From the NCBI GenBank assembly GCA_031286985.1, contig JAITTL010000013.1, positions 1 to 50,557 on the forward strand: a stretch of 50,557 nucleotides of DNA. Reading direction: 5' to 3'. The notes under the pieces were generated by a model. The model was not told where the DNA came from, made no database searches, and saw nothing but the letters and a program-made list of their open reading frames with translations. Both the position numbers and the translations under genes were made by a program. This document shows positions 11,533-50,557 of this stretch, piece after piece. Position 1 is the first letter of the stretch, and every line of letters starts with the position of its first letter. This DNA comes from Endomicrobium sp. Lineage in GTDB: Bacteria; Elusimicrobiota; Endomicrobiia; Endomicrobiales; Endomicrobiaceae.

Positions 11533-13614
11533 ATGGCTAGAGAGTATCCGTTGAGTAAGGTTAGAAATTTTGGGATTGCAGCGCATATCGATGCTGGAAA
11601 AACAACTACAACAGAGAGAATTTTGTATTATACTGGAAGAACTCATAAAATTGGTGAAGTTCATGAAGGTGCTGCAACTATGGATTGGATGGAACAGGAA
11701 CGAGAAAGAGGGATTACGATTACTTCTGCTGCCACGTATTGTAAATGGCAGGATATGCAATTTAACATTATTGATACTCCTGGACATGTTGATTTTACTG
11801 CGGAAGTTGAGAGATCGTTAAGAGTTTTAGATGGTGCGGTTGTAGTTTTTGATTCTGGCAACGGAGTTGAGCCTCAATCTGAAACTGTTTGGAGGCAGGC
11901 AGATAAATATGGTGTTCCAAGAATTGTTTTTTCAAATAAGATGGATAAAATTGGTGCAGATTTTTTTATGGTTGTAAACGATATAAAGGAAAAACTCGGG
12001 GCTATTCCTCTTCCCATTCAGATTCCTATAGGTGCTGAATCTGATTTTCAAGGGATAGTTAATTTGGTGACGATGAAAGCTCATGTTTGGTCAGGTGAAG
12101 AGCTTGGTGCAAAATTTGAAATAGTGGATATTCCAAAAGAATTGAATGAAAAGGCGTGTCGTATGCACAATGAAATGATAGAGCTTATTGCAGATTATAA
12201 TGACGATGTGATGAATAATTTTATGGAAGGAAAAGAGTCAACAATATTTCAGATAAAACAGGCAATAAGAAATGCAACTTTACAAATGAAATTGATTCCT
12301 GTGCTTTGTGGAACAGCTTTTAAAAATAAGGGTGTGCAGCCTGTGCTCGATGCAGTGTGCGATTATTTACCATCACCGCTTGATAGAAAAGCGTATAAAG
12401 GAATAAATCCTTATACGGGTGAAGCAGATGTCAGAGAATTTGATGATAAGGCCCCATTTAGTGCGTTGGCATTCAAAATTCAAGCGGATCCTTATATAGG
12501 GAAATTGACATATTTTCGAGTATATTCTGGAACATTGGGAATTGGTTCATATGTTTATAATCCAGGTAAAAATGCAAAAGAAAGAATTTCGCGTATAGTT
12601 CGTATGCATTCAAATAACAGAGAGGAAATAAGGTCAGTTGAAGCTGGTGATATTGCGGCTGCTGTAGGTTTAAAAAATACGAGCACCGGTGATACTCTTT
12701 GTGATGAAGAAAAACCTATATTGCTAGAATCTATGGATTTTCCGGACCCGGTTATTGATATTGCAATTGAACCTAAGTCTAAAGCTGACGAAACAAAACT
12801 TAGTGTAGCTTTAAGTAAGCTTGCGGAGGAAGATCCTACGTTTAGAGTTAGAACTGACGAAGAAACCAATCAGACCATTATAGCAGGAATGGGTGAATTG
12901 CATCTTGAAATTTTAGTCGATAGAATGAAGAGGGAGTTTAATGTGCAGGCAAATGTAGGAAGACCTCAGGTTGCATATAGAGAGACAATTAAAAAAGCGC
13001 AGGAAGCAGAATCAAAATATATCAGACAGACTGGAGGACGTGGACAATATGGGCATGTTGTTCTTACTGTTGAACCTCAATCGCCAGGTAAAGGTTATGA
13101 ATTTGTAAATAAAATTGTGGGAGGGGTAATCCCTAAAGAATATATTCCAGCAATAGATAAAGGTATTAAAGAGGCGATGACTTCTGGGACTTTAGCGGGA
13201 TATCCTGTGGTGGATGTAAAAGTGACCATTACAGATGGTTCGTTTCACGAAGTTGATTCATCTGAAATAGCGTTTAAAATTGCGGGGTCCATGGCTTTCA
13301 AAGATGCTTGTAAAAAAGCAAGTCCTGTTATTTTGGAACCAATAATGAGAACGGAAATAGTTGTTCCTGAAGAATATATGGGTGATGTTATTGGTGATTT
13401 AAATTCAAGGCGTGGTAAAATCGTGAATATGGAAGCAAAGAACAAGGTGCAACATATTAAGGCGAATGTGCCGCTTGCTGAAATGTTTGGATATTCGACA
13501 TCGTTGAGATCTCTTACGCAAGGCAGAGGGAATTATAGCATGGAACCTTCACATTATGAAGAAGTTCCAAAGCAGGTTGCTGACAAAATATTAGAAAAAA
13601 CAAATAAAGTGTAA
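11533..13614 (+). CDS. fusA: Elongation factor G
   Basis: 693 residues. EF-G is the translocase GTPase of protein synthesis, and also acts in ribosome recycling with RRF. The G1 loop AHIDAGKTT is near residue 18, the canonical switch I RERGITI near 58, DTPGHVDF (G3) near 82 and NKMD (G4) near 136; the C-terminal domains IV-V include [12 protein letters not shown] 11533 (MAREYPLS) follows GGGAAG, and I prefer it over an in-frame TTG at 11503. tuf starts 10 bases after its stop. Confidence 0.97.
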
Positions 13615-13624
13615 GGGGAATAAA

Positions 13625-14824
13625 ATGGCAAAAGGAAAATTTGACAGAAGTAAGGCGCATGTTAACGTAGGAACAATAGGGCATGTTGATCATGGAAAAA
13701 CGACATTGACAGCGGCGATAACGAAGGTTTTGGGAGATAAAGGGTTAGCAGAGTATGTACCATACGATGAGGTAGCAAAAGCATCAGAATCGCAAGGAAG
13801 AAGAGATGCGACAAAAATAGTAACAATAGCGGTTAGTCACGTAGAGTATTCTACGGATAAGAGACATTATGCGCATATAGATTGTCCGGGACATGCAGAT
13901 TATGTCAAGAACATGATCACAGGAGCAGCGCAGATGGATGGGGCTATATTGGTGGTGAGCGCGCTGGATGGTCCGATGCCACAAACGAGAGAGCATATAT
14001 TGCTAGCAAGACAGGTGAATGTTCCGTCGATAGTGGTGTTTTTAAACAAGTGTGATGCAGTGGAAGATAAAGAGTTAATAGATTTAGTGGAAATGGAAGT
14101 TAGAGATTTGCTGACGAAGTATAATTTTCCCGGAGATAAAACACCAATAATAAGGGGAAGTGCATTGCAGGCCTTGGAGGGAAAAGAGGAAGGAGTTAAA
14201 GCGATAATGAAGTTGATGGAGGCGGTAGATGAGACGGTATTGTTACCGGAGAGAGCAATAGACAAACCATTTTTAATGAGCGTAGAGGATGTGTTTTCTA
14301 TAACAGGAAGAGGAACTGTGGCTACAGGAAGAGTAGAGAAGGGAAAGGTAAAGGTGGGAGAAAATGTGGAGATAATAGGAATACAAGATACAAGAAAATC
14401 TGTTGTGACAGGAGTAGAGATGTTTAAGAAGTTGTTAGATGAAGCTCAAGCTGGAGACAATATAGGAGTTTTGTTAAGGGGAATAGAGAAAGGACAGGTG
14501 GAGAGAGGGCAGGTTATAGCTTTCCCAGGATCAATAAAGCCGCACAAGAAGTTTAAGGGGCAGGTGTATATATTGACGAAGGAAGAAGGTGGTAGACATA
14601 CACCGTTTTTTAATGGATATAAGCCACAGTTTTATTTTAGGACGACAGATGTTACAGGAGTAGCGCATTTGCCAGAAGGAGTGGAAATGGTGATGCCTGG
14701 AGATAATGTAACGATGGATATAGAGTTGATAATGCCGGTGGCGATGGAAGGTCAGTTGAGGTTTGCGATAAGAGAAGGTGGAAAAACAGTAGGGTCAGGA
14801 GTTGTGACAGAAATAATTGAATAA
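13625..14824 (+). CDS. tuf: Elongation factor Tu
   Basis: 399 residues. EF-Tu delivers aminoacyl-tRNA to the ribosome. G1 GHVDHGKT is at 19-26, G3 DCPGH at 86-90 and NKCD (G4) near 141. Domains 2-3 are full length and end in [10 protein letters not shown]. Two oddities stand out. Switch I reads KIVTI (64-68) where nearly all EF-Tus have RGITI, though the Mg-binding Thr67 is kept. Isoleucine is encoded almost only by ATA, unlike in fusA next door. The ribosome binding site AAGGGG lies just before ATG 13625. The gene appears intact and should be functional. Confidence 0.96.
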
Positions 14825-14924
14825 TGATTGTATGTAGATAGGTTAATTGCAAGAGTAAGTGTGAAATTTGAGATCGGCAGGTGAATGATGTTGTGGGTTA
14901 AAAAATAAAACAGGATTAAAATTT

Positions 14925-46986: not shown

Positions 46987-47721
46987 ATGAAAAAGATAAT
47001 TATAATCATTAGTCAATTTTTGGTTTCTTTAGTGTCCATTGTGCATGCATCATCACGATTGTACCAATCGGAACCAATGGTTGAAATTGAAGTTGAAATT
47101 ATTGAGGTAAATGAAAACAAAATCAAGGATTTTGGATCTGAGTTACCTTCTATTTTTTCTGTAGAAGAATCAAACATCCCTTCCATTATTGAATCCGGTG
47201 CTTTTCGTAGGACAACAAAATTTACTGCGACTCTTAAAGCTTTGGAAGAGAACGGAATTGCAAAAATTTTATCAAAGCCTAAACTTGTTACAAAATCTGG
47301 TACGAGAGCTAGTTTTATGGTCGGTGGAGAAATCCCGGTTGCAACGGGGACTAGAGTCAAAAAATTTCATACAAAGTGGAAAAAATATGGAATAATCATG
47401 GAGATCACCCCGACGATTATAAAGCACGATAAAATTGATATTGTTATTGACACGGAGCTTTCAAGAATAGATAGGTCTGTTTTGGGTGCCGATAAATGTC
47501 CCGGAATATCAAAAAGGCATGCTTTTTCAAATCTACAAATAAAAAATGGGGAAACAGTTGTTTTAGCCGGGCTTATCGAGACTACAAAAGAAACAATCGT
47601 AAAAGGTGTTCCTTTTTTAAAAAGTATTCCAATTTTAGGAATATTATTTCGCCACAAGTGTGATGTTGAAAAGAAAACAAACATACTCATTTTTGTTACC
47701 ACAAAATTACTACTGGTATGA
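46987..47721 (+). CDS. Secretin-core protein (CpaC/RcpA- or PulD-like, short)
   Basis: 244 residues. A signal peptide (MKKIIIIISQFLVSLVSIVHA) is followed almost at once by the secretin beta-domain: VEIEVEIIEVNEN at about 32-44, LKALEENGIAKILSKPKLVT near 80-100, GGEIPV near 117 and the family signature VPFLKSIPILGILF near 215-228. Secretins form outer-membrane rings in type II, type IV-pilus and Tad systems, normally 400-700 residues with N0/N1 domains that dock to the rest; these are missing. The downstream TadE-like genes favour the Tad type. The next gene starts in its stop (ATGA). Confidence 0.82.
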   Translation: MKKIIIIISQFLVSLVSIVHASSRLYQSEPMVEIEVEIIEVNENKIKDFGSELPSIFSVEESNIPSIIESGAFRRTTKFTATLKALEENGIAKILSKPKLVTKSGTRASFMVGGEIPVATGTRVKKFHTKWKKYGIIMEITPTIIKHDKIDIVIDTELSRIDRSVLGADKCPGISKRHAFSNLQIKNGETVVLAGLIETTKETIVKGVPFLKSIPILGILFRHKCDVEKKTNILIFVTTKLLLV

Positions 47722-47912
47722 TTATGAAGACAAACAAAGGACAAAATTTAGTAGAGTTTTTGCTTGTATTAACGGTGTTGTTTATTGTAGGATTCGGCGT
47801 TGTTTGGATTTATAAAAAATTTTGGGTATCAAAATATAAAAAAATTTTTGCTGTATTAGAAATAAACGCTAGGATAAAAAAGTCAAAATATCAAGAAAAT
47901 TATGTCAAATGA
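47718..47912 (+). CDS. TadE-like short pseudopilin-type protein
   Basis: 64 residues. After MIMKTNKGQ comes a single hydrophobic helix beginning NLVEFLLVLTVLFIVGF. The KGQNLVEF pattern is that of TadE/TadF-like pseudopilins, where prepilin peptidase cuts near the start and a Glu sits at about +5. The remainder is basic and short, with no soluble domain. Its ATG overlaps the secretin stop and its stop overlaps the next start, so three genes are translationally chained. Confidence 0.65.
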   Translation: MIMKTNKGQNLVEFLLVLTVLFIVGFGVVWIYKKFWVSKYKKIFAVLEINARIKKSKYQENYVK

Positions 47913-48481
47913 GACAATACATATTTGATAATAAAGGCCAATCTCTTGTCGAAGCACTGGTGGTTGTTATGTTTATTACAGTTATTGTGCTATTGTTTAT
48001 AAAAATTTGTAAAATTGTTGTTGATGGTATGCTTGCAAATGAGGCTGCATTTGTTGCAGCACGTTCAGCAGCTGTTACCAAAATGGGCAAACGTTCTGCC
48101 GAAGCAAAAAACAAGATAAAAAATTATCTTGCATTTTTTTCTTGTACTGCAACCAATTTTGATCTTATGTTTTTTACGCTTTCCAACAAAAAAAGTGTTG
48201 TAAAATATTTTAAAAAGTCTGATGGAATCGGCGAAAATATTCTCGATGAAATGAACGATTCTTTAAAGCAAAAAAATAAATCTGTAAATATTTGGAAAGG
48301 TAGAAAACATGCAAGGGACTATTCTGGCCAAGTTGTGACTAAAGAAACGGTTAAAATATATTATTCAGCCAGGCTATTGTTTAATAGAAGGTACCAGGCG
48401 GCAAGAAATAGAATGGTAGCCTCTCCAGATGAAAAATATTATTATAAGGCTTTTCCAGAGGCAAAAAAATTTGAAGAATAA
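47909..48481 (+). CDS. TadE-like protein
   Basis: 190 residues. MRQYIFDNKGQSLVEALVVV starts with the same GQSLVE pattern and one membrane helix (about 12-40). NEAAFVAARSAAV near 49-61 matches the conserved NEAARAAA-type segment of TadE-like proteins. The soluble part is Lys-rich and without further motif. It starts inside the preceding stop (ATGA at 47909-47912). TadE-like proteins are minor pseudopilins needed for Flp pilus assembly. Confidence 0.75.
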   Translation: MRQYIFDNKGQSLVEALVVVMFITVIVLLFIKICKIVVDGMLANEAAFVAARSAAVTKMGKRSAEAKNKIKNYLAFFSCTATNFDLMFFTLSNKKSVVKYFKKSDGIGENILDEMNDSLKQKNKSVNIWKGRKHARDYSGQVVTKETVKIYYSARLLFNRRYQAARNRMVASPDEKYYYKAFPEAKKFEE

Positions 48482-49511
48482 TAGAGGGCAAACGTTATAT
48501 TATTTTTTGATTTTTATAAGTATATCCATCGTTAGCTTAGTTGCTATGTTGAATATAGCACAGTTGATAAGAAGTAGAATTACAATGCAAAATGAAGCAG
48601 ATAATATAGCTGTTTCTTTAGCAACTTATAAAGCAAGAGTCCTAAATTTTTTAGGAGAAATCAATTATTTTATGGGATTGATTTTGTCGCTTGGAATGAA
48701 CATTGAGAAAACACAAGAGGTATCGTATTCAACAGACATTGTAGGTGGTTTTCCAGCAACGATGAATCCTATACAGGAAAATTTCTTATCCGATGTAAAA
48801 CACGGTTACTTGAGGAATAAGCAAAGTGATGGTGTGGAAAAAAAAAGACAAATAATTGAGATATTGCAAACGATACAAGAAGAAGCGATAAAGAATTATT
48901 TTTCATATTATCATGACATGGGTTCAAAAAAGATTAACTGCAATTATGATGTTTCCCTGTTTCCTGCAAAACCTGAGCCTAACTTAGGATTAAAACGTAA
49001 CGCCAAGGGAATACAATATTACTCCATAATTAACGATTGCATATATCTGAATCATGGTAGGCATTTACATTCTCTACAAAAAAGTAAATACAAAAAAAAC
49101 AAATATTCTTGGTTTGTTGAAGGAAGTAAGTTTAGTGCGCAAAAAATTAGAGTTGTACTTCGACAAAAAACAAAGAATGGAGGATCTTTATTTGCAAGAT
49201 TGTTGAGAATTCAACCTTTACAGATTACAGTTTACTCAGCGGCTTCACCTTATAATGTTGAAGGGTCAATGTTTCCAAAAAAGGAAGGCGCTTTTACTGG
49301 TGTACCAAAAATAGTTAAACATTCGACAAAAAATACGTTTGTTCAAAAATTAAATCTGCCAAAAAATATAGTTACGCGACAAAAGGAAAAAAGTTGCAAT
49401 CAGATGCTAACTGATACTAATAGTGATGAAGATAATCCAATTGATGCTTATTTATGCTCAAAAACAGGAGGATGGACAGCTCACTTAGTTCCGTACAACG
49501 GAGACAAGTAG
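48471..49511 (+). CDS. TadG-like putative pilus-assembly protein
   Basis: 346 residues from TTG 48471, preferred because AGAGG lies about 10 bases upstream and it yields MKNNRGQTL, parallel to its neighbours; ATG 48429 would overlap the previous gene by 53 bases. One N-terminal membrane helix (YYFLIFISISIVSLVAML) is followed by QNEADNIAVSLATYKARV, resembling the LQNAADAAALA segment of TadG/TadE-G proteins. The rest is a large predicted extracytoplasmic part with four or more Cys. It ends the four-gene run. Confidence 0.65.
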   Translation: MKNNRGQTLYYFLIFISISIVSLVAMLNIAQLIRSRITMQNEADNIAVSLATYKARVLNFLGEINYFMGLILSLGMNIEKTQEVSYSTDIVGGFPATMNPIQENFLSDVKHGYLRNKQSDGVEKKRQIIEILQTIQEEAIKNYFSYYHDMGSKKINCNYDVSLFPAKPEPNLGLKRNAKGIQYYSIINDCIYLNHGRHLHSLQKSKYKKNKYSWFVEGSKFSAQKIRVVLRQKTKNGGSLFARLLRIQPLQITVYSAASPYNVEGSMFPKKEGAFTGVPKIVKHSTKNTFVQKLNLPKNIVTRQKEKSCNQMLTDTNSDEDNPIDAYLCSKTGGWTAHLVPYNGDK

Positions 49512-49565: not shown

Positions 49566-49594
49566 TTGACATTTAAGTTAAGGGTTTGTATAAT
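49566..49594 (+). promoter_or_regulatory. Consensus sigma-70 promoter of the repeat-protein gene
   Basis: A perfect TTGACA (49566-49571), a spacer of exactly 17 bases and a perfect TATAAT (49589-49594). This is the best promoter match in the window. Transcription would begin near 49601, leaving a leader of about 98 bases before ATG 49699. It indicates strong, possibly constitutive expression separate from the TadE/TadG-like genes. Confidence 0.85.
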
Positions 49595-49698: not shown

Positions 49699-50557
49699 AT
49701 GGGAACGATTGTGGGGTTAGTAAGCAGGAAGATTAGATTTTTTGTGGTTTTATGTCTTGTGTGTATGATTGGGGTTTGTTTGTCGAGAAGTGGGTGGTCC
49801 CTTAATTATATCGGCTATTCCGTTGGTGCGGATGGTGTGACGGTTCGCGGTTATCGCGTAACACATAAAGAGGACGCAGTGATATGTAGGAAAATAGATG
49901 AAGCATTAGGAGCCCCTATAAGAATCAATGGTTTAAGAAAAGGCAAAGAAGTTTTTTTGGCGGCTAAAGATGATATTGCTAAAAGTAAGAGAAGGAGTTC
50001 TGATGGTAAGTATTTGGAATATAGAATTAGAGATATTTCTGGCAGTACTGACGAAGATAAAGGCAAGATAGCGTTTTGGAAAAGCTTCCAAAAGGAAGGA
50101 TTGAGCTATTTTAGAGACGATTTCAAATTTAATGGTCCTGATTGTTTGATTAAAGGTGAAGATGGATATGAAGATGAAGATAGTGAATATAACAGCACTA
50201 GCGAAGATGAATATGGATATGAATATGAAGATGAAGAAGGTGATGGAAAAGGAAAAGGTGATGGACTAAGAGTACCAGAAGGTGATGGAAAAGGGAAAGG
50301 TGATGGAAAAGGAAAAGGTGATGGAGCAGGAAAAGGTGATGGAAAAGGAAAAGGTGATGGACCAATAGTACCACCAGCAGTTCAAGATGATGGAAAAGGA
50401 AAAGGTGATGGAAAAGGAAAAGGTGATGGAGCAGGAAAAGGTGATGGAAAAGGAAAAGGTGATGGACCAATAGTACCACCAGCAGTTCAAGATGATGGAA
50501 AAGGAAAAGGTGATGGACCAATAGTACCACCAGCAGTTCAAGATGATGGAAAAGGAA
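49699..50557 (+). CDS. Secreted or membrane-anchored Gly-Asp-Lys repeat protein (3' truncated by window)
   Basis: At least 286 residues; the frame is open at the window edge. AGGAGG at 49687-49692 is a near-ideal ribosome binding site. Residues 9-30 (SRKIRFFVVLCLVCMIGVC) form a positively charged plus hydrophobic signal or anchor. Residues 35-150 make a non-repetitive domain that I do not recognise (NYIGYSVGADGVTVRGYRVT ... GPDCLIKG). Residues 152-180 are highly acidic (EDGYEDEDSEYN...). From 181 on it consists of GDGKGK and PIVPPAVQD repeats. Function unknown; surface or cell-wall association is a guess. Neighbouring Tad-like genes may or may not be related. Confidence 0.8.
   Translation, partial: MGTIVGLVSRKIRFFVVLCLVCMIGVCLSRSGWSLNYIGYSVGADGVTVRGYRVTHKEDAVICRKIDEALGAPIRINGLRKGKEVFLAAKDDIAKSKRRSSDGKYLEYRIRDISGSTDEDKGKIAFWKSFQKEGLSYFRDDFKFNGPDCLIKGEDGYEDEDSEYNSTSEDEYGYEYEDEEGDGKGKGDGLRVPEGDGKGKGDGKGKGDGAGKGDGKGKGDGPIVPPAVQDDGKGKGDGKGKGDGAGKGDGKGKGDGPIVPPAVQDDGKGKGDGPIVPPAVQDDGKG
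50239..50557 (+). repeat. Nested in-frame tandem repeat (18/51/105 bases)
   Basis: The 18-base unit GGTGATGGAAAAGGAAAA (GDGKGK) recurs with minor variants. The block GGACCAATAGTACCACC starts at 50359, 50464 and 50515, giving periods of 105 and 51 bases, which differ by exactly three 18-base units. All units keep the reading frame. The array continues past the window edge, so copy number is unknown. Confidence 0.95.

Follow-up and report, generated by a model that had tools for sequence, protein, structure and literature searches.

A short Tad-type secretin and its minor-pilin genes in Endomicrobium: the probable outer-membrane half of a pilus machine encoded at two chromosomal loci

Tad (type IVc) pilus machines comprise Flp, TadA-G, TadV, TadZ and RcpA-C (CpaA-F in Caulobacter), and the Endomicrobium genome considered here shares with them a secretin, an RcpC/CpaB protein, TadA, TadB, TadC, TadE-like proteins, a TadG-like protein, a Flp-type pilin and a peptidase. 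According to the accessible text of PMC6668835, Tad is present in Elusimicrobia and is almost exclusively found as a single locus, multi-locus arrangements being very rare. A Tad-like region is known in Endomicrobium agilis TA21/TA26 and in E. proavitum, with pseudogenes in Rs-D17, as reported in the available part of PMC8809381, which speaks of one large chromosomal Tad region and in which a short secretin goes unmentioned. Among the titles and displayed abstracts of a literature search that covered few subscription journals, none describes a split of the Endomicrobium Tad genes or a short secretin. The Tad system of Endomicrobium is already published, and what is less ordinary is its stable split and its secretin devoid of an N-domain.

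The window, i.e. the whole stretch of DNA analyzed (50,557 bases), is contig C33 of a 34-contig, 984-kb assembly (G000) from the genus Endomicrobium/Endomicrobiellum, a group of termite-gut symbionts. Four intact plus-strand ORFs of 244, 64, 190 and 346-360 aa lie at its positions 46987-49511 (Table 1), and very probably represent one half (outer membrane and minor pilins) of a Tad (type IVc) pilus machine whose genes occupy two chromosomal loci. The initial annotation had recognized in them a secretin core, two TadE-like proteins and a TadG-like protein, and this four-gene set is upheld, with the roles of E1, E2 and G leaning on orthologues. In a Pfam profile search SecS was matched as a secretin core, and E1 as TadE-like under the curated cut-off. 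E2 taken alone gave a weak match, and its orthologue in L040, a relative from another family of the order, matches TadE at 0.012, also below cut-off; in the profile search of the window ORF no domain was matched by G alone, and its L040 orthologue matches the Pfam family Tad (PF13400) at 3.4e-6, above cut-off. These assignments rest on the L040 orthologues and on orthologue alignments of G and E2.

Table 1. Coordinates and basis of assignment of the module genes in the window and of the TadA gene located elsewhere in the genome.
Feature	Assignment	Position	Strand	Basis
SecS	Short Tad-type secretin (RcpA/CpaC relative); signal peptide and barrel, without N-domain	46987..47721	+	PF00263 1.1e-40
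E1	Small Flp/TadE-type minor pilin; GQNLVEF, class III prepilin-like motif	47718..47912	+	PF07811 7e-4, below cut-off
E2	TadE-like minor pilin/pseudopilin; GQSLVEA	47909..48481	+	Orthologue alignment; TIGR03816 0.014
G	TadG-like protein; TTG 48471 favoured, ATG 48429 possible	48471..49511	+	Orthologue alignment; L040 orthologue PF13400
TadA	TadA with predicted fused ParA/MinD-like domain	L023 (G000:C7) 12848-14836		PF00437 1.2e-58; 662 aa, no internal stop

The four genes had been described as linked throughout by ATGA overlaps, which is correct for the SecS/E1 (47718-47721) and E1/E2 (47909-47912) junctions and fails for E2/G, where the overlap amounts to 53 nt from the ATG or to 11 nt from the TTG. 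The latter codon is favoured because an 11-nt E2/G overlap is found in the orthologues L026, L027 and L030, and it is most likely the start of G; the profile match to G lends it no support, since the row used to build that profile had already been trimmed at 48471. Only two other junctions among the 45 plus-strand ORFs of at least 100 aa in the window overlap by 1-11 nt, so that the packing of the module stands above background. E1 directly follows SecS in 13 of the 15 genus secretin loci fetched (it is missing at L034 and L035), and the overlap is of 4 nt in 12/13 listed genus loci for E1/E2 and in 7/13 for SecS/E1. No Rfam match to a leader RNA element was obtained in 30000-50557. A phage origin was considered and rejected: the hit to protein IV of filamentous phages in PHROGs (4.1e-39) reflects the common secretin domain, and the neighbours are Tad and housekeeping genes.

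Downstream of G, an ORF at 49699-50557 that runs off the contig end encodes a secreted-looking protein with DGKGKGDG repeats, for which ATG 49699 is a better start than 49633, and it is preceded by a 12/12 sigma-70 consensus (49566-49594) and an AGGAGG stretch. Its leader of about 30 residues is common to seven ORFs of this genome (including L163-L168), six of which run off a contig end, and was matched in none of the 58 relatives searched. These ORFs make up a lineage-specific secreted family, by which the assembly seems to be interrupted.

The absence of motor, platform and pilin reported by the initial annotation is true of the window, where neither TadA, TadB/C, peptidase nor Flp was seen, and does not extend to the genome, in which a search for the remaining Tad parts located them on contigs C7 and C4. 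Contig C7 encodes, on one strand, a TadE (match 3.1e-9), a Flp-type pilin, a CpaB/RcpC (PF16976 1.3e-14, over cut-off), TadA and the adjacent TadB and TadC (two PF00482 matches over cut-off). The pilin, located between TadE and CpaB, is a 55-aa ORF bearing the class III prepilin motif GQGMVEYILI; it matches Flp_Fap at 9.4e-6, short of the Pfam cut-off that its L040 counterpart passes (3.4e-11). A prepilin peptidase of TadV or PilD type is found on C4 (PF01478 4.5e-17, over cut-off), and is not Tad-specific, given that it is retained in nine genus genomes that have neither half (G001, G006, G007, G011, G012, G014, G020, G023 and G027). Genome-wide, SecS is the one secretin and TadA the one secretion ATPase above cut-off, and therefore the two halves are each other's only visible partners. 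TadA is also the only T2SSE match over cut-off in the search for a PilB/GspE-type motor of T4aP or T2SS, and no N-methylated (PulG/PilA-type) pilin was detected in the genome by PF07963 at E 0.1; PF07963 matches below cut-off occur in two E1 orthologues.

Gene order in related genomes supports the suggestion that the module is a fragment of a split locus. Both observations that the initial annotation had named as refuting its motorless module were made: the remaining Tad genes lie elsewhere in the genome, the module genes being normal components of single loci in L037, L040 and L129, and reading frames are disrupted in a sister genome (G018). In relatives from other families of the order, some with extra genes in the run, the same genes are ordinary members of one locus: L037 (same contig as L125) and L040 (identical to L128) hold SecS, E1, E2, G, TadE, Flp, CpaB and TadA in one run, which in L040 additionally includes TadB and TadC, L129 is a single locus with SecS, E1, E2, G, TadE, CpaB and TadA, and the short contig of L130 holds SecS, E2, G, TadE, Flp and an incomplete CpaB. 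Of the 14 genomes outside the genus in which both are placed, nine have the short secretin and the best TadA-like match at most 15 kb apart on the same contig (in G050 this match is a shorter paralogue). Within the genus, the halves stand on different contigs in all 14 genomes possessing both (several of the L097-L141 loci duplicate contigs of the L024-L042 set and were counted once). The lower bound on their separation ranges from 4.1 to 77.9 kb over 13 of these 14 genomes (G032 omitted), being 12.5 kb here and 77.9 kb in G013, so that the split cannot be put down to contigs having broken there.

In several genus members, as in Endomicrobium species such as L112, L115, L117 and L119, the module follows lpd-gcvT, and the order lpd-gcvT-SecS-E2-G is seen again in other Endomicrobium species, with TadE kept downstream of G in L110, L119 and L121. 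TadA was found in 10 of the 11 Endomicrobium species genomes outside the genus set, that of L122 giving a partial weak match only, and, on comparison of coordinates, cannot share the secretin contig in L107, L109, L110, L114, L115 and L121. In G036 the motor cluster and G are near lpd-gcvT (L093, G036:C1) and SecS, E1 and E2 are on another contig (L041, G036:C3), apparently a different split.

The two halves are also kept and lost together. Among 35 genus genomes, 14 harbor an intact secretin and TadA, one the secretin only (G018), one TadA only (G034) and 19 neither, the secretin fragment of G020 being scored as absent. The linkage is nearly perfect, and significant by Fisher's test both in the 35 genomes (p 9.3e-8) and in the 23 that are at least 80% complete (p 1.6e-4), values that overstate the case since the genomes, being related, are not independent. 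Genomes holding both SecS and TadA have an intact TadG-like gene, and G034, an assembly 81% complete, has TadA with neither secretin nor TadG-like gene. This joint loss across the genus shows the dismantling of a pilus in endosymbionts.

The Tad of this symbiont could also be a relic which no longer works, its outer half having begun to decay as the genome is reduced; we consider this unlikely, although several observations point in that direction. Genus genomes devoid of the module are mostly smaller (0.2-1.3 Mb vs 0.8-1.4 Mb), and remnants of G persist in G006, G007, G012 and G023; in the sister G018 the reading frames of E2 and G are disrupted, tadA being broken as well. The window copies of E2 and G carry in-frame deletions in stretches conserved among orthologues and lie on long branches: distance ratios of this genome relative to its sisters are 1.67 for G, 1.52 for E2, 1.42 for CpaB and 1.37 for SecS, compared to 1.10 for TadA and 1.07 for TadB. 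Deletions and faster evolution together could reflect early decay or relaxation. Against this, ten genes from the two loci are free of internal stop codons in this genome. Comparison within two close sister pairs gives a dN/dS of 0.16-0.33 for SecS, E2, G and TadA, indicative of purifying selection on SecS, E2 and G; the highest values, 0.42 for TadB and 0.55 for CpaB, go with a dS of just 0.07 and 0.04. Relative to G024/G025, the genes of this genome give 0.14-0.42, unreliable values as dS often exceeds 1, and SecS, E2 and G remain below 1 (0.15-0.42) with dS near saturation.

A second alternative, compatible with a Tad encoded at two loci, concerns its use. The pilus likely serves to adhere to or contact surfaces, in the gut of the termite or in the host protist, and DNA uptake is possible; that it is chiefly a DNA-uptake pilus serving ComEC seems to us rather improbable. 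Such a role for Tad is proposed in the available part of PMC8809381, and ComEC is encoded in 14 of the 15 genomes with SecS vs five of the 20 without. Nevertheless, four of the genomes that retain the peptidase with neither SecS nor TadA (G006, G007, G020 and G023) also keep ComEC, and the losses of ComEC and of SecS both track small genome size and low completeness. Finally, a separate envelope device working without the C7 motor, which the initial annotation had entertained as a reduced export device or a repurposed envelope complex and which the tight cassette, found next to gcvT in many genomes and at a distance from the motor, might recall, is highly improbable, as the motor half is present in the genome and co-occurs with the module, the secretin is found without TadA in just one of 15 genomes, where TadA is a pseudogene, and secretin, G and TadA all remain in G010 and G032, where the secretin stands alone with G on another contig.

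We thus return to a single Tad pilus machine encoded at two loci, in which the prepilin peptidase on C4 would cleave the class III prepilins, TadA together with TadB and TadC would polymerize the Flp pilin, and the TadE- and TadG-like minor pilins would prime or tip the fibre, which, with CpaB as a periplasmic conduit, would leave the cell through the SecS ring. The locus would ancestrally have been one cluster that was split in the Endomicrobium lineage, the SecS half coming to lie beside lpd-gcvT. What appeared as a puzzle, a secretin module with no motor, becomes a clear case of a split machine.

The motor also displays a variation. Residues 1-235 of TadA match ParA/MinD structures (Z 18.4, rmsd 3.2, 226 aligned; the fold is common to many ParA-like proteins) in an N-terminal model of 300 aa with a mean pLDDT of 76.5, suggesting that the motor carries a fused TadZ-like domain. 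No separate TadZ gene was seen beside TadA on C7, an absence which the fused domain may explain. A P-loop is usual in ParA/MinD-fold proteins. It is not evident in this domain of the genus sequences, from which it appears to be lost, and FCPU426-type relatives keep a GGVG stretch. Some relatives encode, directly after or near the short secretin, a further TadA-like ATPase of smaller size (L040:4518-5567, L038:10504-11562, L130:1068-2309 and L139:8455-9522), in which it could act as a retraction motor; none was found in this genome by the ATPase profile search.

As for the secretin, RcpA of P. aeruginosa (8odn) and SecS have the barrel in common. Whereas RcpA possesses an N-domain (28-112) and an S-domain contacting TadD, as given in the available part of PMC10499894, SecS has 31 residues, signal peptide included, ahead of the first core strand. 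Its AlphaFold model (mean pLDDT 70.8) matches GspD (Z 12.7, rmsd 6.9, 163 aligned) and RcpA (Z 11.1, rmsd 6.3, 157 aligned), in a structural list that favours no one secretin family and in which missing families were not treated as excluded; by sequence profile RcpA ranks second among solved structures (E 3.2e-31). Alignments were restricted to distinct sequences, namely 45 secretins longer than 200 aa (that of G039 was missed through ORF pruning) and 25 CpaB (the broken one of G018 excluded). The region before the core spans 1-64 residues, mostly 21-30, in 36 Elusimicrobiota-type secretins, and 96-143 residues in four FCPU426-type secretins (one titled Proteobacteria). The N-domain PF13629 is present in the one FCPU426-type secretin tested (1.4e-17) and was detected in the Caulobacter control; it was matched in none of the 59 genomes of the group, a search that an N-domain of another family could escape. 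A detached N-domain encoded by a neighbour gene is not supported: in L040 and L038 a small lipoprotein-like ORF precedes SecS, the one in L040 giving weak Ig-like matches only, and the window shows no such gene immediately ahead of SecS.

The accessible text of PMC12307814 reports that the RcpA N-domain of P. aeruginosa binds RcpC, and that of PMC10499894 that a linker joins this domain to the barrel. Each of the 20 aligned Elusimicrobiota CpaB has a charged, helix-like C-terminal segment that finishes in a KEALEI..KY-like stretch, and the five outside sequences (four FCPU426-type, one Vibrio) lack it. We tentatively propose, as a possibility that we regard with some doubt, that in the Elusimicrobiota Tad the secretin lost its N-domain and the CpaB segment would dock directly on the base of the barrel, forming a minimal Tad pore with a different interface between secretin and alignment ring. 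A secretin without N-domain would offer a natural minimal Tad pore for probing the coupling between secretin and alignment ring.

The Tad systems of PMC8809381 belong to the same genus group and are of the same kind as the one described here, and TA26 has an orthologue (L117) of the window module; in TA26 (apparently G024) the two halves occupy separate contigs, with no less than 60 kb between them, in contrast to the one region of which the available part of that paper speaks. A stable split throughout the genus is likewise a counter-example to the near-exclusive single-locus Tad of PMC6668835, as far as its accessible text goes. Compared to the usual Tad, this genome has two loci instead of one, a predicted ParA/MinD-like domain fused to TadA and a secretin without N-domain. 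The single-locus layout is usual and not obligatory for Tad (PMC6668835), and the N-domain of the secretin is taken here as an accessory rather than a defining feature. Overall, we regard this as an ordinary Tad pilus whose genes are divided between two loci and whose secretin varies modestly in structure.
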